Part shown: positions 43,796 to 64,000 of the stretch, piece after piece | Layout: each line of letters begins with the position of its first letter | Position numbering within the stretch: the stretch's first letter is position 1 | DNA from: Terriglobia bacterium | GTDB taxonomy: Bacteria > Acidobacteriota > Terriglobia > Bryobacterales > Bryobacteraceae | Length of the DNA stretch: 64,000 bases | Direction: 5' to 3' | Assembly (NCBI GenBank): GCA_020073365.1 | Contig: JAIQFL010000009.1 | Coordinates: 1-64,000 of the forward strand | Translations under genes and position numbers: made by a program | The notes under the pieces: generated by a model | The model's database searches: none | Told to the model about the DNA's origin: nothing | The model's input: only the letters and a program-made list of their open reading frames with translations

Positions 43796-46700
43796 ATGAA
43801 GCTTGCTGGCGCACTGCTGTGGATTCCTCTCTCGGTATCCCTGGCCCAAATCCCCACGCCCGAGTCTGTGCTCGGCCATAAGCCCGGCGACGATTTCTAC
43901 CTTGCCAGCTACGACGAGTCGCTGGCGTACTTCCAGAAGCTGGCCCAAGCCACCAACAAGCTGAAACTCGTGCGCGTCGGCAAGACCACCCAGGGGCGCG
44001 ATTGGTACATCGCCGTCATCTCGGCCGCGGGCAATCTCTCGCAACTGGACAAATACAAGGACACCGCACGCAAGCTGGCCCTGGTCAAAGGGCTGACCGA
44101 AGCCCAGGCGCACGAACTGGCGCGCAGTGGCAAGGTGATCGTTCACATCGATGGCGGCCTGCATGCCACCGAGGTCGCTCCCGCACAGCACGCCATTCAG
44201 CTCGCCTACAACCTGGTAACCGCCACCGACCCCGCGACCGCCGCCATTCTCGACAACGTCATCCTCCTGCTGTGGTTCTCCATCAACCCCGACGGCCAGA
44301 ACATGGTGGTCAACTGGTACCGCGGCAATCTCGGCTCGCAGTACGAGGTCAGCAACATGCCGGGTCTCTATCAGGAGTACATCGGCCACGACAACAACCG
44401 CGACGGGTACATGAACAACATGCTCGAGTCTCAGGTCATCACACGCGCGGAGCTGGAGTACTTTCCACAGGTCTTCTACAACCAGCACCAGACGGCGCCC
44501 TTCCCGGCGCGCATCTGGATTCCACCGTTCGGCGATCCCGTCTCGTTGAATCCGCATCCCTTGATGTATCGCTGGGTGAACGTTTTCGGCGCGTCCATGG
44601 CCGCCTGGCTGGACGAGCACGACATGCCCGGCGCCATGCATCGCGGACGGTTTGACGACTGGTACCCCGGCTTCGTGGACCACGTGAACAACTTCCGCAA
44701 CACCGTCTCTTTCCTGACCGAGACGGCGCTCTACCGCTACGCCACGCCGCACTTCTACACCACCGACGACTTCCCGCGCGAAAGGCAGGATCTGCGCACC
44801 GAGGTCTTCTATTCGAGTCCGTGGACTGGCGGGTGGTGGCGGCTGGGAGACGCCGTGCGCTACAACATCGGCGCATCCATGGCGGTGTTGGATACCGCCG
44901 CCAAGAACCGCGAAGAGTTACTGTACGACCGCTACCGCGCGGGGCGCGACGTAATCGCGCGCTTCACCAAGGATCCTCCTTACGCCTACATCATTCCGCG
45001 CGAGCAGCGGGACCGGCCCACGGCCGCGATCCTGGTGGAGAAGCTGTTGATCGACGGGATCGAGGTGCACCAGGCGACCAAAGAATTCGCCGCCAACCGG
45101 TCCACCTATAAGGAGGGCGACTGGGTGGTGCTGATGGATCAGCCCTTCGCGGCGCTGGTGAAAGAGCTATTCGATGTTCAGAAGTACCCGGAATTGCCGC
45201 ATCCGCCCCCAATTACGGCCGCTGGCGGCAGGGGTGGTGGCACACCGGGCGGAGGCGGTGGCGCTCCGGGCGGAGGCGGAGGCGCTCCGGGTGGCGCCGG
45301 AGTTGCTCCCGCAGGCGGTGCTGGCGCCGGTGAGGGCGCTGCTCCCGGCGAAGGTGCTGCTCCGGGCGGCGGGGCTGGTGTCGCTCCTGCTGCTCCGGCG
45401 GGTGGTGCTGGCGCGGCCCAGGGCGCCGGCGGTGCTGGATCCGGCGGCCGTGGTCCAGGTGCAGGTGGCCGAGGCGGTGGTGGCGCGGGCGCCGCTCCTG
45501 CAGCCGGAGCTGGAGGCCGGGGCGGTGCAGCGGGTGGCGCGGCACCGGGCGCGGCAGCCGGCGCCCAGGCTCCACCGGCACAATTCCCCTACGACGTGAC
45601 CGGCTGGACTCTGCCGCTCCAGATGGGAGTGGAGGTGGTGGCCGTCGCGGAGCCGGTCGACGAGGCAACGCGGCGCACGCTGCGCAAGGTCGAACACGTC
45701 GATCCGATCCAGGGCAAAGTGGAAGGCTCGGGTCCGGTGTTCGCGTTCTCGCACAACTCCAATGCGGCCCTGCGCGTGGTGAACGACGTCCTGGCGTCCG
45801 GTGGAACCGTGAGCTTCGCGAAATCCGAGAGCACCATCTACGCCAAGGGGAATGTCGAATCGTTGCTTCAAAAGAGTGGCGTCAACGCCACTTCCCTCAA
45901 GGAAGCGCCGGAAGCGGCATGGCCCGTAAAGAAGCCGCGGGTGGGTCTCTACGAGCCCTGGGCAGGCAATATCGATGAAGGCTGGACGCGCTGGGTCTTC
46001 GAGCAGTTCCGTTTTCCCTTCACGCGGCTCCGCAATGCGGACGTCCAGTCCGGCCACCTGCGCGACCAGTTTGACGCCATCGTGTTTGCGGAATCCGGGA
46101 CGCGCCAGATCGTCGACGGCATGCGTTCGGGCACCGTGCCCGGCCAATACGCCGGCGGGATCGGCGAAGAGGGCACGCAGGCGCTCCGCGATTTCGTCAC
46201 CCAGGGCGGGACGCTGGTCACACTGGGCAACGCCAGCCTGTTTGCCATCGAGGAGTTCAACCTCCCGGTGACCAACGTGGTGGCCGGCCTGAGGCAGGAC
46301 CAGTTCTTCTGCTCCGGCTCGCTGCTGCGGGTGGAGATCAAGGAAGCCAATCACCCCGTGGTGGCGGGTCTCCCACTGAGCCTGCCGGTGATGTTCGAGC
46401 GCAATCCGGTATTCGATACCAAGACTGGCTTTCGCGGCAAGATCTTAGCCAGCTACATCAAGGACCGCACCCCTCTACTGAGCGGTTTCCTGCTGGGCGC
46501 GGATGTGATTCAAGGCAAGGCCGCGGCCATGGATGTCAACCTCGGGACCGGCCACATCATCCTGCTGGGCTTCCGGCCGCAGTGGCGCGGCCAGTCGCAC
46601 GGCACCTACAAGTTCCTCTTCAACGCGTTGTTTTACAACCCGTCCATGGCGCCCGAAGCGCCGGAGCGCGGGGGCCGCGGCGGTGGCGCTGGTAATGCAC

Positions 46701-47029
46701 AGCAGTCGGCATGGAGAAGAGAGGCGGAATCGGTGAAGGGCGAGCTGAGCAAGTTGCTGGATGCGAACCGCGCGTATTTCACGGCCCGCGGACCGAGTGC
46801 CGCGGAACGGGGCAAGCTGCTGGAGACGGCGCTCGATGCGTTCCAGCGCGACCGTCTCCCGCTGCTCGACGATCTGCGCGCGCAGGTGGAGGATGCCGCC
46901 GTGGCGCGGGGCGAGGCCGCCTACTCGGCGCAGTTGAAGAAGTTCGCGGTGGACCTTCGCACCAAGGACTTCAGCGCCTCCAAGCTGGAGGATTTGCTGG
47001 ATCAATATAAGTTGGCGGTGGTGCCATGA
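43796..47029 (+). CDS. M14-family zinc carboxypeptidase-like protein with large Gly/Ala-rich insert
   Basis: TTQGRDWYIAVISAAGN...IVHIDGGLHATEVAPAQHAIQLAYNL (HxxE), WFSINPDGQNM, YNQHQTAPFP; low-complexity segment at ~45219-45575. Confidence 0.93.
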   Translation: MKLAGALLWIPLSVSLAQIPTPESVLGHKPGDDFYLASYDESLAYFQKLAQATNKLKLVRVGKTTQGRDWYIAVISAAGNLSQLDKYKDTARKLALVKGLTEAQAHELARSGKVIVHIDGGLHATEVAPAQHAIQLAYNLVTATDPATAAILDNVILLLWFSINPDGQNMVVNWYRGNLGSQYEVSNMPGLYQEYIGHDNNRDGYMNNMLESQVITRAELEYFPQVFYNQHQTAPFPARIWIPPFGDPVSLNPHPLMYRWVNVFGASMAAWLDEHDMPGAMHRGRFDDWYPGFVDHVNNFRNTVSFLTETALYRYATPHFYTTDDFPRERQDLRTEVFYSSPWTGGWWRLGDAVRYNIGASMAVLDTAAKNREELLYDRYRAGRDVIARFTKDPPYAYIIPREQRDRPTAAILVEKLLIDGIEVHQATKEFAANRSTYKEGDWVVLMDQPFAALVKELFDVQKYPELPHPPPITAAGGRGGGTPGGGGGAPGGGGGAPGGAGVAPAGGAGAGEGAAPGEGAAPGGGAGVAPAAPAGGAGAAQGAGGAGSGGRGPGAGGRGGGGAGAAPAAGAGGRGGAAGGAAPGAAAGAQAPPAQFPYDVTGWTLPLQMGVEVVAVAEPVDEATRRTLRKVEHVDPIQGKVEGSGPVFAFSHNSNAALRVVNDVLASGGTVSFAKSESTIYAKGNVESLLQKSGVNATSLKEAPEAAWPVKKPRVGLYEPWAGNIDEGWTRWVFEQFRFPFTRLRNADVQSGHLRDQFDAIVFAESGTRQIVDGMRSGTVPGQYAGGIGEEGTQALRDFVTQGGTLVTLGNASLFAIEEFNLPVTNVVAGLRQDQFFCSGSLLRVEIKEANHPVVAGLPLSLPVMFERNPVFDTKTGFRGKILASYIKDRTPLLSGFLLGADVIQGKAAAMDVNLGTGHIILLGFRPQWRGQSHGTYKFLFNALFYNPSMAPEAPERGGRGGGAGNAQQSAWRREAESVKGELSKLLDANRAYFTARGPSAAERGKLLETALDAFQRDRLPLLDDLRAQVEDAAVARGEAAYSAQLKKFAVDLRTKDFSASKLEDLLDQYKLAVVP

Positions 47030-49545
47030 CCGTGGAGCGGCCTTTCAGGCTGAAAGCCTCCTCCACATTACTCCTTCTCCTGCTCGCCTCAACCGCCTCG
47101 GCCCAGATCCCCACGCCCGAGTCCGTTCTCGGCCACAAGCCGGGTGACGATTTCTACCTGGCCACCTATGAGGACGCGCTCGGCTATTTCCACAAACTCG
47201 CCGCGGCCTCCAAGCGGATCAAGCTGGTGGAGGTCGGCAAGACCACCCAGGGGCGAGACTGGTTCATCGCGTTCATCTCCGACCCCGAGAACCTGGCGCA
47301 ACTCGACCATTACAAAGACGTCTCGCGGCGGCTCGGCGTGGCGCGCGGGATCTCCGAGGAGCAGGCCCGCACGCTGGCGCGCGAGACCAAGCCGATCATC
47401 CATATCGATGGCGGCCTGCATGCGAGCGAGGTGGCCAACCATCAGCACACGATTCAGCTCGGCCACGACCTGGTGGCCAGCGAAGAGCCCGCGTTCAAAG
47501 CCATTCGCCAGAACCTGATCGTCGAACTGTGGTTCTCCATCAACCCCGACGGCCAGAGCATCGTGGCCAACTGGTATCGCGAAAACGTCGGCTCGCCCTA
47601 CGAGGTTAGCCCCCTGCCTGTGCTCTATCAGGAGTACGTGGGCCACGACAACAACCGCGACGGCTACATGTTGAACATGCTCGAATCGCGGGTCATCACC
47701 AAGGCCACGCTGGACACCCAGCCGCTGGTGTTTTACACCCAGCATCAGACCGCGCCCTTCCCCGGACGCATCTACCTTCCCCCATTCGCCGATCCGATTT
47801 CGGGAAACATGCACCCGTTGATGTTGCGATGGCTCAACCTCATTGGCATGGCCATCGCGCAGCATCTCGACGATCATGGGCTCACCGGCTCGATGCACCA
47901 GGAGACCTTCGACGTCTGGTACCCCGGTTACATCGACAATATCGGCAACTTCCGCCATACCATCTCCTTCTTTACGGAGACCGCGCTCTACCGCTATGCG
48001 ACCCCGCACTTTTACACGGTGGACGAGTTCCCGGCAGTGCGGCAGGGCTTGGGCACGGAGATGCTGTATTCGAGCCCCTGGAAGGGCGGATGGTGGCGCC
48101 TGGCGGATGCCTGCCGCTATATGTACGAGGCGGACATGGCGGTGCTCAATCTGTCGTCGAAGTACCGCGAGCAGATGACCTACAACAAGTACCGGGCGGC
48201 GCGCGACACCATCGAGAAGTTCGAAAAAGAGCCTCCCTTCGCGTATGAGATTCCGCGCGAACAGCACGACGCACCCACCGCCGCCGCGCTGTTGGAGAAG
48301 CTGATGCTGCAAGGCATCGAGGTCCGGCAGTCGGCCAAGCCGGATGCCTGGGTGATCCCCATGGACCAGCCGTTTGCCGGCCTGGTGAAGGAGTTGTTCG
48401 AGCCGCAGGTCTATCCGGTCTTGTCGCAGCGTCCCTACGATGTCACCGGCTGGACCCTGCCGTACCAGATGGGCGTGGAAGTCCACGCGGTGACCACGCC
48501 ATTGACTAAGCAGTTCCGCGACTCCCTGCAGCCCATCAAGGAAATCCATGGGCTGGCCGCGCCCTTCAACCACAGCGCCAACGCCAGCTTCCGCGCCATC
48601 AACGAGATTCTGGCCGCCAAGGGCACGGTCTCGTTCACGGGCAATGAAATCAGCGCGTCGAATATCGATAAGGGCAAGTTGGATGCCATACTGGGGGAGA
48701 ACCGCCTGCGCGCCGCGGTTGTCAAGCAAGCCGTCAAAGAGGCCGCCGGCAAAGAGGCCCCCAAAGAGGCTGCCAAGGACTCCGGTAAAGAGGCCCCCAA
48801 AGAGGCCGCCAAAGACGCCGCCAAGCCGATTAAGGCCCTGCGGGTGGGACTGTACAGGCCCTGGGTGGCGAGCATCGATGAGGGCTGGACCCGCTGGATT
48901 CTGGAGCAGTACAAGTTTCCGTTCGCCAGCCTCTACAATGCCGACATTCGCGGCGGCCACTTGCGCGAGCGCTACGACGTGATCGTGATCCCAGATATTT
49001 CGGAGCGTCAGATCATTGACGGCCACCGGCCCGGGACGATTCCCGAGCGCTATGCCGGCGGTCTGGGCGAAGAGGGCGTCCAGGAGTTGCGCGATTTCGC
49101 GACCGATGGCGGTACCCTCATCACTTTCAACAACGCCTCCATGTTCGCGGTCAACCAGTTCAAGCTTCCGCTGGAGAACTCGCTGGCCGGGCTGCGCGCG
49201 GACCAGTTCTTCTGCTCCGGTTGCCTGGTGACCGTGCATGTGGAGGATGCCAAGAATGCGCTCACCGCCGGCCTGGCCGCGGACACCACCGTGATGTTCG
49301 AACGGGGCCCGGCGTTCGATACCAAGACCGGTTTCAAAGGCACCGTTCTGGCGCGTTATCCGCGCGAGCGTTCACCGCTCAGAAGCGGTTACCTGGCGGG
49401 TCCCGAGAGACTGGAGGGCAAGATTGCCGCTGTGTCTGTGGATTATGGCAAGGGCCACGTGATTCTGCTGGGCTTTAAACCGCAGTGGCGGGGTCAATCG
49501 CACGCCGCGTACAAGTTCTTCTTCAACGCGTTTTACGGAGAGTAG
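47026..49545 (+). CDS. M14-family zinc carboxypeptidase-like paralog
   Basis: Collinear with the preceding protein (IPTPESVLGHKPGDDFYLA shared); IIHIDGGLHASEVANHQH; 4-nt overlap with the upstream gene; carries a KEAPKEAAKD-type repeat instead of the Gly-rich insert. Confidence 0.93.
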   Translation: MTVERPFRLKASSTLLLLLLASTASAQIPTPESVLGHKPGDDFYLATYEDALGYFHKLAAASKRIKLVEVGKTTQGRDWFIAFISDPENLAQLDHYKDVSRRLGVARGISEEQARTLARETKPIIHIDGGLHASEVANHQHTIQLGHDLVASEEPAFKAIRQNLIVELWFSINPDGQSIVANWYRENVGSPYEVSPLPVLYQEYVGHDNNRDGYMLNMLESRVITKATLDTQPLVFYTQHQTAPFPGRIYLPPFADPISGNMHPLMLRWLNLIGMAIAQHLDDHGLTGSMHQETFDVWYPGYIDNIGNFRHTISFFTETALYRYATPHFYTVDEFPAVRQGLGTEMLYSSPWKGGWWRLADACRYMYEADMAVLNLSSKYREQMTYNKYRAARDTIEKFEKEPPFAYEIPREQHDAPTAAALLEKLMLQGIEVRQSAKPDAWVIPMDQPFAGLVKELFEPQVYPVLSQRPYDVTGWTLPYQMGVEVHAVTTPLTKQFRDSLQPIKEIHGLAAPFNHSANASFRAINEILAAKGTVSFTGNEISASNIDKGKLDAILGENRLRAAVVKQAVKEAAGKEAPKEAAKDSGKEAPKEAAKDAAKPIKALRVGLYRPWVASIDEGWTRWILEQYKFPFASLYNADIRGGHLRERYDVIVIPDISERQIIDGHRPGTIPERYAGGLGEEGVQELRDFATDGGTLITFNNASMFAVNQFKLPLENSLAGLRADQFFCSGCLVTVHVEDAKNALTAGLAADTTVMFERGPAFDTKTGFKGTVLARYPRERSPLRSGYLAGPERLEGKIAAVSVDYGKGHVILLGFKPQWRGQSHAAYKFFFNAFYGE

Positions 49546-56219: not shown

Positions 56220-58079
56220 CTACTGCCGGAACAAGAACACTCGGCCCGAGTTGGGCGCGATGATGCGGAGCGCGACTTGCCCATCCTCCAGTTGGAGCCA
56301 CTTCCACTCGAAGTGTTCGTCGAACTTCCGGATGGCCGCTCCTATGCTTTCCATAGACTCGGGTGATAGCGTGTCACCCAGGTGTACCGTAAGACGCGAG
56401 AACAGCGCCTCGCGTACCTGGTCGGACAGACCTACAGCGTCGATGCGCACCAGTCTGCGGTTGCCCGAAGGAGAATTCGATTCTGCCAGGGCGGCCCGTT
56501 GCTGTTCCAGTTCCTGCGTCATGGTTCTCAGCTCGTTGAGGCGGCCTTTCAGTTCATTGAGTACGGCCGGATCCTGCTGCCGCGCCAAAGCGCCCTGCAG
56601 CCTATCGAGTTCTTCCCTACGCTCGACCAGCCGTCTTTCGAGCTGTTCTTTTTCCTCCCGGGATTGGGCGAGGTCGTTCATGAAGACTTTGACCTGTTCG
56701 AGCTGCTCTTTGTGGAGGTCGTCAACCGTTCCCGCGGCTTCCTCAGCCTGACGGCGTCGCGCCGCGGCCAACTGGAAATTGACGCTGACCTGTCGCGTGC
56801 TTCCGGCCACGTCGGGCAGGAAGTGCCACTCGAAGACCGATTGCAGAGCCGCTCTGCGCAACTCCAGCGGGCCGCTCAAGACGCGCGCATCGCCGACAGC
56901 ACCTGCGGCATCGAGCGTGGCTTCCACGGTCACGGTCCCCTCGATCCCTTTTTCGATCGCCGGCCAGGGATATTCCACGGAGGTTCGGTGCAGTACGGCA
57001 GCGGTGCCCAAATCGACGCTCACTCCCGCGCCATCGCGCCCCTGACCCGGGCCACGGACTGTGAACGAGAAGGCGGTCTTTGGTTCCTCCTGCGCCTGGC
57101 CTCGGGCCCAGTGCACGTTGATCGCAAAGCAGGCCAGTCCCAGGCAGAGCGCCAGAATTCCCGGCAGCTTGGATGGGCCACACTCCTGCGTCTTGACGCC
57201 GATCAGCCTCTGAATACGGTACAGCAACGGCCCGCCGGTACTGGCCATAGCCATGCCTGGCGCCATCATCCGCAGCCTCTCGATTTTGGTCAAGGCGCGC
57301 GCGTAGCAGAGCGCGTCGCCGCAGGAACTCACGGCCAGATCGTCGCAGCACAACTCCCTTTCCCGCCGGATGCGCGCCGAGATCCACCAGACCGCGGGGT
57401 GGTAGAACAACAGAGTCTCCGCCAGGATTTGCAGCACGTTGACCAGATAATCGTGCCGCCGGATGTGCGCCAGTTCGTGTGCGAGGACGGCCTCCAGTTG
57501 CTCCGGCGTAAGCCCCAGGAAGGTGGCGGACGGCAGCAGGATGGCCGGACGGATCCACCCGACCACGCTCGGCCCGTCGGCCACCGCGGTCATCAGGACG
57601 CGCACCGGGCGGGCGAGTCCCAGGCGGGCTCCCAGAGTCGCGACGATGGCGACGACCGGCGCCTCGGCCGGCGAGCCACGGCGGCGCAGCGACGATACCT
57701 GTCGGCAACCCCACGCCAGCCGTATGGAGAACAGGAGCACGCCCAAAGACCACGCCGGGACCGCCCACGACTGCCAGGCGGCCAGCCAGTCTCTCGCCGG
57801 GACTGCGCCCCTCGCTGCGGCAGCCACGCCTTGTGGGACGATGGCGTTAAGCACGAGGCCGGCGCGCGCTGGCGCAGGTCCGGTATAAAGAACGTACGCC
57901 GTGATCGCCGGCAGCACCGCCAGGACCGCAAGGGCCATGCAGCTTGCCAGATAACGGGAATTGGCGGAACGCTTCCGCAACCCGAAAAGTGCTACCCAAA
58001 GAAGGAAGGCTACCAGCAGGCCCTGCCACACGAAATGGAGCAGAGCCGCGCTGAGGGCCTGTGCCATCGCTGTTGTCAT
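56220..58079 (-). CDS. M56-family (BlaR1-like) membrane peptidase fused to a TonB C-terminal-like domain
   Basis: LEAVLAHELAHIRRHDYLVNVLQ (HELAH), TM helices; downstream VEYPWPAIEKGIEGTVTVEATLDAAGAVGDARVLSGPLELRRAALQSVFEWHFLP (TonB_C-like) plus a coiled coil. Confidence 0.9.
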   Translation of the reverse strand: MTTAMAQALSAALLHFVWQGLLVAFLLWVALFGLRKRSANSRYLASCMALAVLAVLPAITAYVLYTGPAPARAGLVLNAIVPQGVAAAARGAVPARDWLAAWQSWAVPAWSLGVLLFSIRLAWGCRQVSSLRRRGSPAEAPVVAIVATLGARLGLARPVRVLMTAVADGPSVVGWIRPAILLPSATFLGLTPEQLEAVLAHELAHIRRHDYLVNVLQILAETLLFYHPAVWWISARIRRERELCCDDLAVSSCGDALCYARALTKIERLRMMAPGMAMASTGGPLLYRIQRLIGVKTQECGPSKLPGILALCLGLACFAINVHWARGQAQEEPKTAFSFTVRGPGQGRDGAGVSVDLGTAAVLHRTSVEYPWPAIEKGIEGTVTVEATLDAAGAVGDARVLSGPLELRRAALQSVFEWHFLPDVAGSTRQVSVNFQLAAARRRQAEEAAGTVDDLHKEQLEQVKVFMNDLAQSREEKEQLERRLVERREELDRLQGALARQQDPAVLNELKGRLNELRTMTQELEQQRAALAESNSPSGNRRLVRIDAVGLSDQVREALFSRLTVHLGDTLSPESMESIGAAIRKFDEHFEWKWLQLEDGQVALRIIAPNSGRVFLFRQ

Positions 58080-58462
58080 TTTTCCTCTCCTTCAAATCGA
58101 TCCAAAAGCTTCTCAATGGCTTCCAATTCCTCTTTGGACGACCGTTTAGTCGCCATCGCCTGCAACACCAGGGCCTTCACGGAACCGCCGAAGGCGCGGT
58201 GGAGCAGATCGCGCAGCAACTGCCTCTGGGTCTGTTGCTGTGAGTACCGGGCGCGGTAGATCTGCGGGCGCTCGGACTCGTCCCGCTCCACAAGCCCCTT
58301 TTCGGTCATGATCTGCAGCAGCTTCAGGACGGTGGTATACCCGGTCGGTCTGGTTTGATTGAGTACACGCTGAATGTCGCGGACCGAGCGGGGACCGCCC
58401 TCCCACAAGACCTGCAGGATGTTGAGCTCGCCTTCCGTGGGACGACGCTGTTTGGAAGCCAT
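58076..58462 (-). CDS. BlaI/MecI/CopY-family transcriptional repressor
   Basis: RRPTEGELNILQVLWEGGPRSVRDIQRVLNQTRPTGYTTVLKLLQIMTEKGLVERDESERPQIYRARYSQQQT; overlaps the M56 gene. Confidence 0.95.
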   Translation of the reverse strand: MASKQRRPTEGELNILQVLWEGGPRSVRDIQRVLNQTRPTGYTTVLKLLQIMTEKGLVERDESERPQIYRARYSQQQTQRQLLRDLLHRAFGGSVKALVLQAMATKRSSKEELEAIEKLLDRFEGEEK

Positions 58463-58471
58463 GCAGCTATT

Positions 58472-58493
58472 ATTGACGAAGAGCTTCGTCAAT
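58472..58493. promoter_or_regulatory. Putative BlaI operator (perfect palindrome)
   Basis: ATTGACGAAG-AG-CTTCGTCAAT: 10-bp perfect arms 9 nt upstream of the blaI-like ATG. A second, imperfect copy (TGTCAACGAAAATCTTCGTCATT) follows at ~58493-58515. Confidence 0.75.
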
Positions 58494-58494
58494 G

Positions 58495-60132
58495 TCAACG
58501 AAAATCTTCGTCATTGGGAAGTGGGGCGGCGGCGTTGCCGCGGTTGACAGGCCAAAGGGCCTGTCCCACCATCAGCCAGAGTGTGGCCACCAGGTACGCC
58601 ATCCAAAGACCGAGGAAGACGGGCTCGGAAATCCAGCCGCCCTTGTAGACCGCCAGGCGCTCCAGCGCGCCGTGCAGGCCGACCGCTCGCTCATCGGCCA
58701 GGTGCAAGGCCGCGATGGCCCCGCTGGCCTTGTGCCGGATCATGCCCGTGTAGTAAGGGATGGCAACACCATGGACGGTATACAGGTCGAGTAAGGCGAA
58801 CAGAACCACGCCGGCGGCCGGAGCCCAACGCCGGACTCGCGCCAGACCGCCGGCGCACAGGGCCACTTCGGCGGCGACCACGGCGTACAGATACCAGCCC
58901 ATCGAGCCCGGCAGTCCCTTGCTCACGTAGAGCATCAGCACATTGTAGATCTGACCGGCCCAAAAGGCCGCGTAGACGGCGATGAGCCACCAGATCGCGG
59001 GGGAGCGAACCATACGGAGCAGGCCAAAGGCTGCCACCAGGATGACCGCATAGAACGCGTGATACATCCAACTGCGCACCATCAGGGAACTCCAGCCACC
59101 GAAATAGATATGGGAGAAGAGAATCGCGTCGACCGCCGTTCCCCAGGGAACGGCAGACGCCCGCCGGAGCAGAGTCCAGGCGCCCACTCCGCGCAGCATA
59201 GCGGCCTCGCTCAGGCCCGAAAGTGTCCCGGTAGTCAGAATGTTGCGCCAGTACCACCACCCGGCGATGGCCGCCGCTACAATCACCGGCGTGGAAGCGC
59301 GGACGTATTCGAGAACCCCTGCGCGCCTCCTCCAGCATACAAACGCGAGCAGCAGAACAACTGCCGGCACAGCCGTGAGAAAGTAAGCCTTCGTCAATAA
59401 CCCGAGACCCAGCACCACTCCCAAACCGGCGGCCGTCCGCCAACTGGCCCCTTCCTGCAACAATCGCAGTCCGATCCAGATCAGGAGCGTGAACCAGACC
59501 ATCGCTAAACAATCGTTGCCCACCCGCGCAACATCAACCGCCAGTCCAGGCATGACGGCAACCACGGCCGCACAGCAAAGAGCGACTCGCTCATCCCCCA
59601 ACGCCACGTGGCCAATCCGAAAGACCAGCGGGATGATGCAGGAGGCGATGGCGATGCCGAGCCATCGGATCACCAGGACTTGCGCAGCCAGGCCACCATG
59701 GCTCATAAGACGCACGACGGACGCCATCATCCAGTAATAGAGAGGGGGTTGCAGCGCTTCATAGGCCGTCAATCCGCCGGCGTAATCCTCGCGGCCCCAT
59801 TCGGCCGGCATCGCCCGGAACGTAGCCTCGCGTTGGGCCCTCATTTCGGGGGGCAGGCTCCAGTAGACATCCTCGGTGACGGAAGGCGCCGGCAGATTGC
59901 GCAGTTCCCAGGGCACGGGAGCAAGCTGCAGCGACGCCGCGACATCCCGCGGGACCGGCTGGTCTCTGGCAACCAGCGGCTGTCCGCGCAGGGCCATGGT
60001 GCGGATGACGGAGAAGTGGGCCCACTCATCGCAGCCCTCCCACAGCGGGAGCATCGTGGCATAAAAGGCGAGACGCGCCAGGAAGCAGGCCCAGATCAGC
60101 GCGATCCGCCACTCTATGCGCATGGGAGCCAC
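58495..60132 (-). CDS. Integral-membrane glycosyltransferase-like protein (GT39/DUF2142-like)
   Basis: Many TM helices; PLWEGCDEWAHFSVIRTMALRGQPLV...LTAYEALQPPLYYWMMASVV. Confidence 0.8.
   Translation of the reverse strand: MAPMRIEWRIALIWACFLARLAFYATMLPLWEGCDEWAHFSVIRTMALRGQPLVARDQPVPRDVAASLQLAPVPWELRNLPAPSVTEDVYWSLPPEMRAQREATFRAMPAEWGREDYAGGLTAYEALQPPLYYWMMASVVRLMSHGGLAAQVLVIRWLGIAIASCIIPLVFRIGHVALGDERVALCCAAVVAVMPGLAVDVARVGNDCLAMVWFTLLIWIGLRLLQEGASWRTAAGLGVVLGLGLLTKAYFLTAVPAVVLLLAFVCWRRRAGVLEYVRASTPVIVAAAIAGWWYWRNILTTGTLSGLSEAAMLRGVGAWTLLRRASAVPWGTAVDAILFSHIYFGGWSSLMVRSWMYHAFYAVILVAAFGLLRMVRSPAIWWLIAVYAAFWAGQIYNVLMLYVSKGLPGSMGWYLYAVVAAEVALCAGGLARVRRWAPAAGVVLFALLDLYTVHGVAIPYYTGMIRHKASGAIAALHLADERAVGLHGALERLAVYKGGWISEPVFLGLWMAYLVATLWLMVGQALWPVNRGNAAAPLPNDEDFR
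58546..58570. repeat. REP-like palindrome copy
   Basis: gacaggccaaagggcctgtcccacc; lies inside the 3' end of the membrane glycosyltransferase CDS. Confidence 0.65.
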
Positions 60133-60338: not shown

Positions 60339-62123
60339 ATGTCGACCTATGGGAGTTGTGTTCGAGGAGTTGCCCGGCCCATCGTATTGGCGTTCGTGTC
60401 CACGCTTGTGGCGTTAGCGGCGACCCCGCCACCGAAGCCTGGTTGCGAGTACAAAGTAATCGACGCGACCAAGTGGGGCAACAAGGAGCTCAAGAACCCA
60501 CCGGCCATATCTTCGGCGAACGGGACACTGAGAACTAACTTGCGGGTCACTTACACCGAGACTACGATCGGAGGGTGCGGCGTGAAGCTGAGGAGCTACG
60601 TCGCGAGCGGGGCGGAGGCCGGAGGGAGCACGGCACTGGTCGGGCCGACACTCCGAATCAAACCGGGCGATGCGCTGGAGCCGGATCTGATCAACGAATT
60701 GCCCAAAGAGAGCGCCAAGGAGATACAGGCCCAGTTTGAACAGGAGAACAACGCCGCGTATATCACTACCCGGCCGCATTCGTTCAACACGACGAACCTG
60801 CACACGCATGGCCTGCACGTCTCGCCGAACGGCAACAGCGACAACGTCCTGCTGGCTATTCTCCCCGGAACGCATCAGCAGTACAACATCAAGCTTCCGC
60901 CGAATCACCCTCGTGGCACATTCTGGTATCACGCGCATAGTCACGGTTCGACGGCCATCCAGGTGGGCAGCGGAATGGCCGGCGCCCTCATCGTGGAGGA
61001 TGACGAAACCAGGATTCCGGCCGCGCTCAGAGCGGCCAATCAGCACGAAAAGATCATGGTGCTGCAGAGCATCCTGTACGACACGCAAGGACAGATCGAA
61101 CAGATAGCGGCGTTGTTCCCCGATCCTAACAACCCCGACCCTAACAACCCCAATGGCAGGGTTCCCAAACAGGCGTGCGCGGCGGAACCACCACCTCAGA
61201 CCACATGGTTCTGTTCCAAACGCCGGATCACCATCAACGGACAGATCGTTCCCATCATCAGGATGCGTCCGGGGGAGGTGCAGCGCTGGCGGATGATCGA
61301 TACTTCGTTCCGCGAATCCATCAGCCTTACGCTCAACAACGCAGTGCCGAGTCTCCCGGGCCTGGACCTGAACGAGATTGCGCTCGATGGGATCTACCTG
61401 GGCCGAGTCGATATATGGCCCGCGGGCGGCACGCCTATCGACCTGGAGCCCGGATACCGCAGTGATATTCTGGTGAAGGCCAGCGCGACGCCGGGCAAAT
61501 ACAATTTGATCGACAACGCGGTACCGCAAGGCAAGGGACTGCTGGGCGGCGCCGAGCCGGAAAACGTGCTCGCGCAAGTGATCGTCGAGGGAGAGCCGAT
61601 GGACATGCGGCTTCCGACGAATGAAGAGATGCTCCCACTGGCGCCCTTCCCGGGAGTGAACCTGAATGTGACCGCCGTGGGTGTTCAGGAGGTGCTGTTC
61701 AAGCTCGGGACCGGGCTGGAGAATCCCAACCGCAACTATTTCCAGGTGAACTACCACTCGTTCAACCCCGACAACGTGCGCATCTTGAAACTGGGCGCAA
61801 CCGAAGCCTGGCACGTCACGACGATTGGCGATCCCCCCGGGGTTCCCAACGCCATCCCTCCCGCGCCACACGTCTTCCACATCCACATCAATCCCTTCCA
61901 GACGCTCCGTTCGGGGCCCAACGGACAACCGGAAATGGTCTGGAAAGACACCTTGCTGATCCCGCCGGCGGCGGATGTGATGCTGTACACGCGGTACCTG
62001 GATTTCACCGGGACCTTCGTGATGCACTGCCACATTCTGGATCATGAGGATCTGGGAATGATGGAGCTCGACGAGGTGACGGACACCGGGTTAGTCGACA
62101 TGAACATGAACCACGCGCACTGA
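60339..62123 (+). CDS. Multicopper oxidase
   Basis: NLHTHGLHVSPNG, GTFWYHAHSHGSTAIQVGSGMAGALIVED, PHVFHIHINPFQ, FVMHCHILDHEDLGMMELDEV (all four MCO copper motifs). Confidence 0.96.
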   Translation: MSTYGSCVRGVARPIVLAFVSTLVALAATPPPKPGCEYKVIDATKWGNKELKNPPAISSANGTLRTNLRVTYTETTIGGCGVKLRSYVASGAEAGGSTALVGPTLRIKPGDALEPDLINELPKESAKEIQAQFEQENNAAYITTRPHSFNTTNLHTHGLHVSPNGNSDNVLLAILPGTHQQYNIKLPPNHPRGTFWYHAHSHGSTAIQVGSGMAGALIVEDDETRIPAALRAANQHEKIMVLQSILYDTQGQIEQIAALFPDPNNPDPNNPNGRVPKQACAAEPPPQTTWFCSKRRITINGQIVPIIRMRPGEVQRWRMIDTSFRESISLTLNNAVPSLPGLDLNEIALDGIYLGRVDIWPAGGTPIDLEPGYRSDILVKASATPGKYNLIDNAVPQGKGLLGGAEPENVLAQVIVEGEPMDMRLPTNEEMLPLAPFPGVNLNVTAVGVQEVLFKLGTGLENPNRNYFQVNYHSFNPDNVRILKLGATEAWHVTTIGDPPGVPNAIPPAPHVFHIHINPFQTLRSGPNGQPEMVWKDTLLIPPAADVMLYTRYLDFTGTFVMHCHILDHEDLGMMELDEVTDTGLVDMNMNHAH

Positions 62124-62160
62124 GGAGTGGTTCCAGCACGGAGACAGTCCGGAGGGGCGC

Positions 62161-62568
62161 ATGGGGAATGGCCGTCTGAGCAGTTACCTGAAGTCCGTGG
62201 TTCCCGCGTCGGCGTCGACCGTCGGCGCCGCGGCACTGCCGAAGTGTCCGCTGTGCGTGGGCGCCCTTCTGGGTTCCATCGGAATCTCGATTCCACTTTC
62301 GGGGGCTTCCCTCGGCTGGCTGTGCGCGCTTCTGGTGTGCGTTCCGGTCGCGTTGTCGTTTATACCGGTTTGCGGAGCCCGGCGTATCGGGCCGATCCTG
62401 CTGAGCGTCTCCAGCGGATCGCTGCTGCTGTTGGGCAGAGCCTTCGGTGTGGCTTACCCGGTTCTGGCAGTTGGGATCATGGGCCTGATCGCGGCCTCTC
62501 TGTGGAGGGTCCGCGAGACTACCAAGGGCCGCCTGGCCGGCCGGGCGTGCCCTACCAAATCTTCTTGA
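62161..62568 (+). CDS. Small MerC-like membrane protein
   Basis: LPKCPLCVGALLGSIGISIPLSG...: CPxC in a TM context and multiple TM helices. Confidence 0.6.
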   Translation: MGNGRLSSYLKSVVPASASTVGAAALPKCPLCVGALLGSIGISIPLSGASLGWLCALLVCVPVALSFIPVCGARRIGPILLSVSSGSLLLLGRAFGVAYPVLAVGIMGLIAASLWRVRETTKGRLAGRACPTKSS

Positions 62569-62593
62569 CCGTTTCAGAATCGAGGTCCGGACT

Positions 62594-64000
62594 ATGGCAG
62601 AAGAAGGAAAGACAGCAAAATGGACGCGCTACCAGCGCGTGAAGGAGATCCTGAACCAGGCCTCCGGGTCCGCCAACCCCAGCTACCAGGGATACGGAAG
62701 ATTCTGGGAGTTGCCGCTGGAGGAATTCCTCGAGGCGACCATCTATGGCATTCGGATGATCGCTCCGGCGACACCCACACTGGCGCCGGTGATCTCACAT
62801 GGCTCCTGTTGTCACTCGACCGGCGCGAGTAGCGCGCCGGCGCCGCGGGCAGGCTCTCCCGGCCGCGGCGCGGCCTCGGGGTTGATCATTGGACTCAGGG
62901 GCGAGTGCCCCTTCGATGGGACTCAGTTTCCGCGCCTGCCCTGGGACGGGCAACCCGTGTCCGATCCCGATATCCAATTCATTCAGGATTGGATCGACGC
63001 CGGATGCCCGGTGAACGACGACCAGCGTTCACCCGCGCAGGTCCAGGAATCCGTGGTTATGGCGCGTGCCCGGGGAGACGAGGAACATCCTGTTTCCACG
63101 AACAGCACGAACACGGACAGCGAACAATCCGGCGGCCTGAAGGTACGCAAGAATATCAGTTCGCTGAGTTGGGAGGAGTTGCAGCGATTTCGCAACGCGA
63201 TCGCGCGCATGAAGTCGCTCGACAGCTACTACCAGGACGAGCGAAGCTTCGGTTACTGGGCGCGGCTGCACGCCAACGATTGCCAGCACGGATGGGAAGA
63301 GTTTCTTACCTGGCACCGCCTGTATGTGTATTACTTCGAGCAGCAGTTACAGGATATCGACCCGGCAGTGACGCTGCCCTACTGGGACTGGACCGATCAA
63401 TACAAGCCCGACGTGCCGGCGACCCTGTTTGACGCCGCGCAGTTAGACCCTTCCCTGAAAACCGATAACGGGATCGTTCCGCAAGCATACCAGTGCTGGT
63501 TGGACCAGGCAGCCTGGGACCGGCTGAAGGCCAACGGGCTTCCCGAGCCGCTCCTGAGCGAACTGAGAAAAGTGATTACCGTGCCACCCGGAGAGGGAGG
63601 CGACCCAAAGGACTTCAAGACGTTCAACTCCGGACTGCGGCTCTTTACCGCCGCGGGAATCAGGTACGGACAGGACAAGGTGAGCGATCAGAAGATCCTC
63701 GCGGAACTAGGTGTGGTCAACCCGCTGTGGCACGCGCTTCGCTGGCCGGGGGGAGACCAGAACCTGATCTTCGAAGCCTATCCGACGCCGGACGACATCA
63801 ACCGCATTCTGCAACTGTCCAACTTCTTCTCGTTCGGCAGCGGCCCCATGAACAATCATTTCTTTGGCGCCCTGGAGAACATTCACAACCTGATCCACAA
63901 TTTCTCAGGCGGCTCGAACCCGTACTATAAGCCCGGAACCAATCCGCTGGACCGCCAAAACGAGCCACAGTCGGGAGACATGGTTAGTCCCGGAGTGACA
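62594..64000 (+). CDS. Tyrosinase-family (type 3 copper) protein with an extra N-terminal domain, 3' end truncated by window edge
   Basis: My translation from ATG 62594 is open to 64000: MAEEGKTAKWTRYQRVKEILNQASGS...; CuA-like LHANDCQHGWEEFLTWHRLYVYYFEQQLQDIDPAVTLPYWDWT; CuB-like GPMNNHFFGALENIHNLIHNFSGG. Absent from the ORF track because there is no stop in the window. Confidence 0.92.
   Translation, partial: MAEEGKTAKWTRYQRVKEILNQASGSANPSYQGYGRFWELPLEEFLEATIYGIRMIAPATPTLAPVISHGSCCHSTGASSAPAPRAGSPGRGAASGLIIGLRGECPFDGTQFPRLPWDGQPVSDPDIQFIQDWIDAGCPVNDDQRSPAQVQESVVMARARGDEEHPVSTNSTNTDSEQSGGLKVRKNISSLSWEELQRFRNAIARMKSLDSYYQDERSFGYWARLHANDCQHGWEEFLTWHRLYVYYFEQQLQDIDPAVTLPYWDWTDQYKPDVPATLFDAAQLDPSLKTDNGIVPQAYQCWLDQAAWDRLKANGLPEPLLSELRKVITVPPGEGGDPKDFKTFNSGLRLFTAAGIRYGQDKVSDQKILAELGVVNPLWHALRWPGGDQNLIFEAYPTPDDINRILQLSNFFSFGSGPMNNHFFGALENIHNLIHNFSGGSNPYYKPGTNPLDRQNEPQSGDMVSPGVT

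Follow-up and report, generated by a model that had tools for sequence, protein, structure and literature searches.

The three genes at the end of the window (the whole 64,000-nt stretch of soil-acidobacterium DNA analyzed here) are the first half of an operon type that has already been described, and their grouping is real and conserved. Read together with the sequence that follows them, they encode a multicopper oxidase (MCO), a MerC-like membrane protein, a tyrosinase, a LodA-like protein, a small protein and LodB, and we consider it probable that this is a lod-type (group ID) operon working in the way proposed below. The original prediction knew of no named system with such a layout. However, consecutive tyrosinase, MCO and lodA homologues in Saccharophagus degradans were noted in a 2010 review (PMC2855505), and in 2015 'group ID' lodA operons were reported to contain lodA, a small gene of 138-142 aa, lodB, a pfam00264 tyrosinase and an MCO (Campillo-Brocal et al. 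2015, PMC4417212). Because the gene set equals that of the group ID operons, the layout is known and the locus is not a new kind of system. Present at the locus are LodA_N and LodA_C (on two contigs), the CTQ residues, a lodB-like gene, a small gene, a tyrosinase and an MCO; the assignment to group ID is by gene set, and Bradyrhizobium loci with an equal gene set are homologous. The features at the window end are the following:

60339..62123, plus strand: multicopper oxidase (MCO), 594 aa; Pfam PF07731, PF07732 and PF00394, four copper motifs, operon subfamily
62161..62568, plus strand: small MerC-like membrane protein with a PKCPLC motif, 135 aa; ORF with homologues at other loci
62594..64000 in the window, stop at contig position 64660, plus strand: tyrosinase, 688 aa; PF00264 at E 7e-33 with the full-length protein
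62594..63043, plus strand: N-terminal domain of the tyrosinase; hhalign probability 97.3 to CxxCH domains
62807..62812, plus strand: Cys72-Cys73 in the variable loop of the N-terminal domain; Cys in 70/71 and 70/70 aligned rows
63269..63316, plus strand: CuA site (His226, Cys230-x-His232, His241), invariant in aligned rows
63884..63898, plus strand: CuB site (His431-Asn432, His435), by conservation; third ligand His479 at contig position 64028

The ORFs bear out the predicted arrangement of the MCO, the small CPxC membrane protein and the tyrosinase, which lie head to tail on the plus strand with intergenic gaps of 37 nt (MCO to membrane protein) and 25 nt (membrane protein to tyrosinase). The source contig (C654; 65,586 bases) extends past the window end, and the ORF positions on C654 and a second contig, C637, give the gene set from MCO to LodB a common strand and short gaps. 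The MCO is complete, as had been claimed; its Cu-oxidase_2, Cu-oxidase_3 and Cu-oxidase domains are all above the Pfam cut-offs and the four copper motifs were located at 155 (HTHG), 196 (WYHAHSH), 511 (HVFHIHINPFQ) and 563 (HCHILDHEDLGMM). Judged by eye only, its N-terminus is Sec-like. Elsewhere in the window, a BlaR1-type M56 peptidase with a TonB_C domain lies beside a penicillinase-repressor-like (MecI/BlaI) regulator (56220-58498, minus strand), and two adjacent M14 zinc carboxypeptidase-family genes (43796-49545, plus strand), the first bearing a long Gly/Ala-rich insert, look like a tandem duplication.

Beyond the window, the tyrosinase stop is followed after 25 nt by a LodA gene (start at contig position 64686; LodA_N, E 1.2e-57) that runs off the end of C654. 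With the LodA of the closest relative (Solibacteraceae bacterium SbA4, L038) as query, exactly two pieces were found in the genome: query residues 1-292 on C654 and, where C637 ends, residues 354-704, the latter matching LodA_C at E 6.8e-42. The C637 piece carries the Cys and Trp of CTQ (in NECS and YWWPAHRP, aligned to C516 and W581 of LodA via PDB 2ymw), as do all 63 complete LodA homologues. Next to it is the gene for a LodB-like flavoprotein (C637:10053-11162, minus strand), 63% identical to that of L038. A query-by-query search of the genome found no further LodA. Based on this and on the gene order in relatives, we infer that C654 and C637 adjoin with ~60 residues missing between the two LodA pieces, a join to be read in the light of the assembly, which has 705 contigs and an estimated contamination of 6%. 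An ORF of 147 aa, overlapping the stop of LodA, is the small gene that precedes LodB (HMM E 1e-60); a GTG ~10 nt after it is a possible LodB start, and L038 has no such small gene. Judging from size and position, the published 138-142 aa gene probably belongs to the same family. A model of the small protein (mean pLDDT 87) shows an eight-stranded barrel whose best structural matches are avidins; at a TM-score of ~0.65 by target length and E 0.017, the avidin-like fold, a new detail, is suggestive only.

All six type 3 copper ligands of the tyrosinase (H226, H232, H241, H431, H435 and H479) are present and invariant across aligned rows. The original prediction had allowed that copper ligands might be lost past position 64000; since the C-terminal part retains the last CuB histidine, H479, this objection fails. 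Cys230, two residues ahead of His232, and Asn432 are likewise conserved, and Cys230 stands where type 3 proteins of fungi and mollusks have their Cys-His thioether. Structures were compared through the model of a homologue at 73% identity (mean pLDDT 83). Its type 3 copper core and C-terminal domain align over ~570-630 columns with those of latent polyphenol oxidases (plant aurone synthase, PDB 4z13) and of bacterial tyrosinases (PDB 7xio, 5zrd), at 16-18% identity and a low whole-chain TM-score of 0.25-0.29, but the window tyrosinase, unlike these proteins, has an additional N-terminal cytochrome-like domain.

This domain (residues 1-150) is related to cytochrome-type domains having CxxCH, yet is without the heme motif, and gave no Pfam match at E up to 10. 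In the tyrosinases it contains an inserted loop with the Cys-Cys, disordered in the model, while other versions of the domain are without the loop. A working cytochrome was rejected, as there is no CxxCH and the Cys-Cys motif sits in the disordered insertion. Such a heme-less cytochrome-like domain with a Cys-Cys loop on a tyrosinase is a new detail. Versions of the domain are found in other loci with redox genes, namely without the loop in a ferritin-like protein directly preceding a LodA-like gene (L034), in a locus (L115) that contains a ferritin-like protein and shows weak similarity to LodA_N, and stand-alone after a cytochrome-like gene (L116), suggesting that it may be a module for docking in redox clusters of this kind. 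The stand-alone copy of Ensifer aridi is at L116:483-2401, and another, in a Mycobacterium (L117:9956-10312), precedes genes named by eye as P450, reductase and Rieske-like.

Scanning genome contigs with an alignment of four tyrosinases yielded 80 loci, 75 with this tyrosinase, and the ~75 loci are spread across Acidobacteriota, Pseudomonadota, Planctomycetota, Cyanobacteria, Bacteroidota, Gemmatimonadota and Nitrospirota. In all 69 of the loci that have 1 kb or more of downstream sequence, LodA is directly downstream of the tyrosinase on the same strand. Where enough sequence was available, LodB was present in 56 out of 57 loci and the small gene in 48 out of 57. The patristic distances of tyrosinase and LodA are correlated at r = 0.98, and of 40 supported splits of the tyrosinase tree, 33 are found again in that of LodA. 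Correlations for LodA-LodB (0.75), tyrosinase-LodB (0.69) and tyrosinase-MCO (0.35) come, like the first, from non-independent loci (many are Bradyrhizobium, Mesorhizobium and Nitrosomonas) in which deep clades inflate the values, a bias shared by all pairs, and shorter proteins yield noisier trees. The invariant core is the tyrosinase, a predicted LodA-like CTQ amine oxidase and a predicted LodB flavoprotein. The parts can now be ranked, with tyrosinase and LodA inherited as a pair, LodB and the small protein next, and the MCO apparently exchangeable. Downstream in ~19 loci there is also a DJ-1/PfpI-family gene (PF01965; for example L075:18176-18820, L104:16203-16850 and L110:10997-11683), which is absent from the stretch of this genome visible beside LodB.

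An MCO is present in 37 out of the 47 loci having both flanks, upstream on the same strand in 23, downstream in 10 and on the opposite strand in 4. Consistent with the synteny that the original prediction proposed to look for, the grouping is conserved in relatives and an MCO adjoining the tyrosinase recurs in other phyla, indicating that the adjacency exceeds chance. The window MCO is 53-58% identical to 16 MCOs of the relatives' clusters, all from Pseudomonadota (another phylum), whereas the best other match among 150 genomes of its own family is 37% identical; it therefore seems to have travelled together with the cluster. The weak agreement of its tree with that of the tyrosinase (0.35) argues that the MCO is the least co-inherited component and probably exchangeable. 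In six of the ten loci lacking an MCO, as well as in two whose flanks are short, there is a gene for a secreted protein (520-660 aa) bearing a C-terminal heme-c motif, mostly CMGCH:

L050:7925-9622
L063:7836-9407
L088:8195-9895
L089:1316-3112
L091:7966-9762
L096:7094-9064
L045:149-1714
L092:5982-7568

None of the 37 MCO loci has such a protein (Fisher p 2e-5, relatedness not corrected for). In L092 it comes after LodB, and in the other seven loci it is upstream of the tyrosinase, on one strand or the other; none of the eight proteins matches a Pfam family above the cut-off. Its presence in loci without an MCO suggests that the cluster seems to need some exported redox protein, whichever that may be.

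For the small membrane protein, 'MerC-like' can be kept only as a loose label. The window protein matches no Pfam family at E up to 10, and one homologue comes near MerC (PF03203) below the cut-off (E 0.011, 16.7 bits versus 27.6). A single-sequence tblastn search (E 1e-3) gave no homologue in any locus, as if the gene were an unrelated insertion, a reading overturned by phmmer and HMM searches. By HMM, PKCPLC membrane proteins are located directly upstream of the tyrosinase in L041, L055, L063, L099 and L109 and elsewhere in the locus in L068 and L110; most loci are without one, and by single-sequence search the family turned up in just 4 genomes (this one among them) out of 150 related ones. 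The prediction that the three genes form one unit is thus right insofar as an MCO accompanies 37 of the 47 loci and a PKCPLC protein directly precedes the tyrosinase in five loci besides that of the window, but the unit is not a three-gene copper set. Given this position and the motif, our best guess for the protein is a role in providing the tyrosinase with metal, most likely copper. In the tyrosinase operon of Marinomonas mediterranea, the membrane protein PpoB2 passes copper to the tyrosinase and not to the laccase (PMC2855505).

From the observed genes, their order, domains, catalytic residues, conservation and co-inheritance, together with what is known of the families, we propose the following working for the operon, whose genes are probably co-transcribed. 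The flavoprotein LodB would hydroxylate the LodA tryptophan, allowing the Cys-Trp quinone cofactor CTQ to form, and LodA would then oxidize an amine to an aldehyde, releasing ammonia and H2O2. As the obligate partner of LodA, the tyrosinase would turn a phenol into an o-quinone, acting on the substrate of LodA or on a consecutive one, and its heme-less cytochrome-like N-terminal domain may serve to dock it to its partner. Metal, most likely copper, would be fed to the tyrosinase by the MerC-like protein, as by PpoB2 in Marinomonas, and an exchangeable redox partner outside the cytoplasm would be provided by the exported MCO, whose place a c-type cytochrome takes in some other bacteria.

A plain phenol-oxidizing or melanin unit, in which MCO, tyrosinase and a copper-handling membrane protein act together and LodA is a mere neighbor, would explain why MCO and tyrosinase are adjacent in many loci, and phenols are substrates of both families. 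We regard it as very unlikely, because in the loci surveyed the tyrosinase never occurs without LodA (69/69) while the MCO is missing from 10 of the 47 loci and only weakly follows the tyrosinase in its tree; an MCO-tyrosinase unit lacking LodA altogether is rejected by the same 69 adjacencies. The near-perfect co-inheritance of tyrosinase and LodA would also fit a tyrosinase that has no small substrate and instead makes or finishes the LodA quinone cofactor, or activates LodA, and tyrosinases do hydroxylate aromatic rings. Such a maturation role strikes us as highly doubtful, since other LodA groups have LodB and no tyrosinase in the operon, and LodB is the factor shown to be required for LodA maturation and activity in Marinomonas (PMC4417212).

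The oxidases could instead be merely co-regulated, as part of a stationary-phase or biofilm oxidative response that directs H2O2 and quinones against competitors, with no shared chemistry. In M. mediterranea, regulation through PpoS is common to the tyrosinase, the laccase and the lysine oxidase despite their separate gene positions (PMC2855505), and LodA-like proteins act in biofilms (PMC4417212). Co-regulation alone, however, would not predict constant tyrosinase-LodA adjacency and matching trees while the MCO is swapped, and we consider this explanation possible but rather unlikely. We favor the lod-type operon with the working proposed above. In a bolder form of it, which we think unlikely, the tyrosinase and the LodA-like quinoprotein would be one obligate two-cofactor enzyme (dicopper and CTQ), joined by the repurposed heme-less cytochrome domain and served by an interchangeable exported MCO or c-type cytochrome. 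If the pair does act as one enzyme, type 3 copper would be joined with a protein-derived quinone, an unusual combination.

The 2015 paper described the group ID gene set from 10-11 genomes, one of them an acidobacterium, and gave it no function (PMC4417212); about 11 genomes have now become ~75 loci. Counting against the proposed working, lysine oxidase activity was sought in S. degradans and none was found (PMC4417212). Group ID operons such as that of Bradyrhizobium japonicum USDA6 likewise hold the lodA-like gene, small gene, lodB, tyrosinase and MCO together. The window locus differs in the MerC-like gene between MCO and tyrosinase, which is not mentioned for group ID, and in having its MCO upstream, whereas in the Bradyrhizobium loci seen here the MCO is downstream. 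M. mediterranea has three oxidase types in common with the window locus (the PpoB1/PpoB2 tyrosinase operon, the PpoA laccase and LodA/LodB) and likewise encodes a membrane protein beside the tyrosinase (PMC2855505). That protein, PpoB2, belongs to COG5486, whereas the window's small protein is without a Pfam family at E up to 10. The M. mediterranea oxidase genes lie apart, unlike those of the window locus (PMC2855505).
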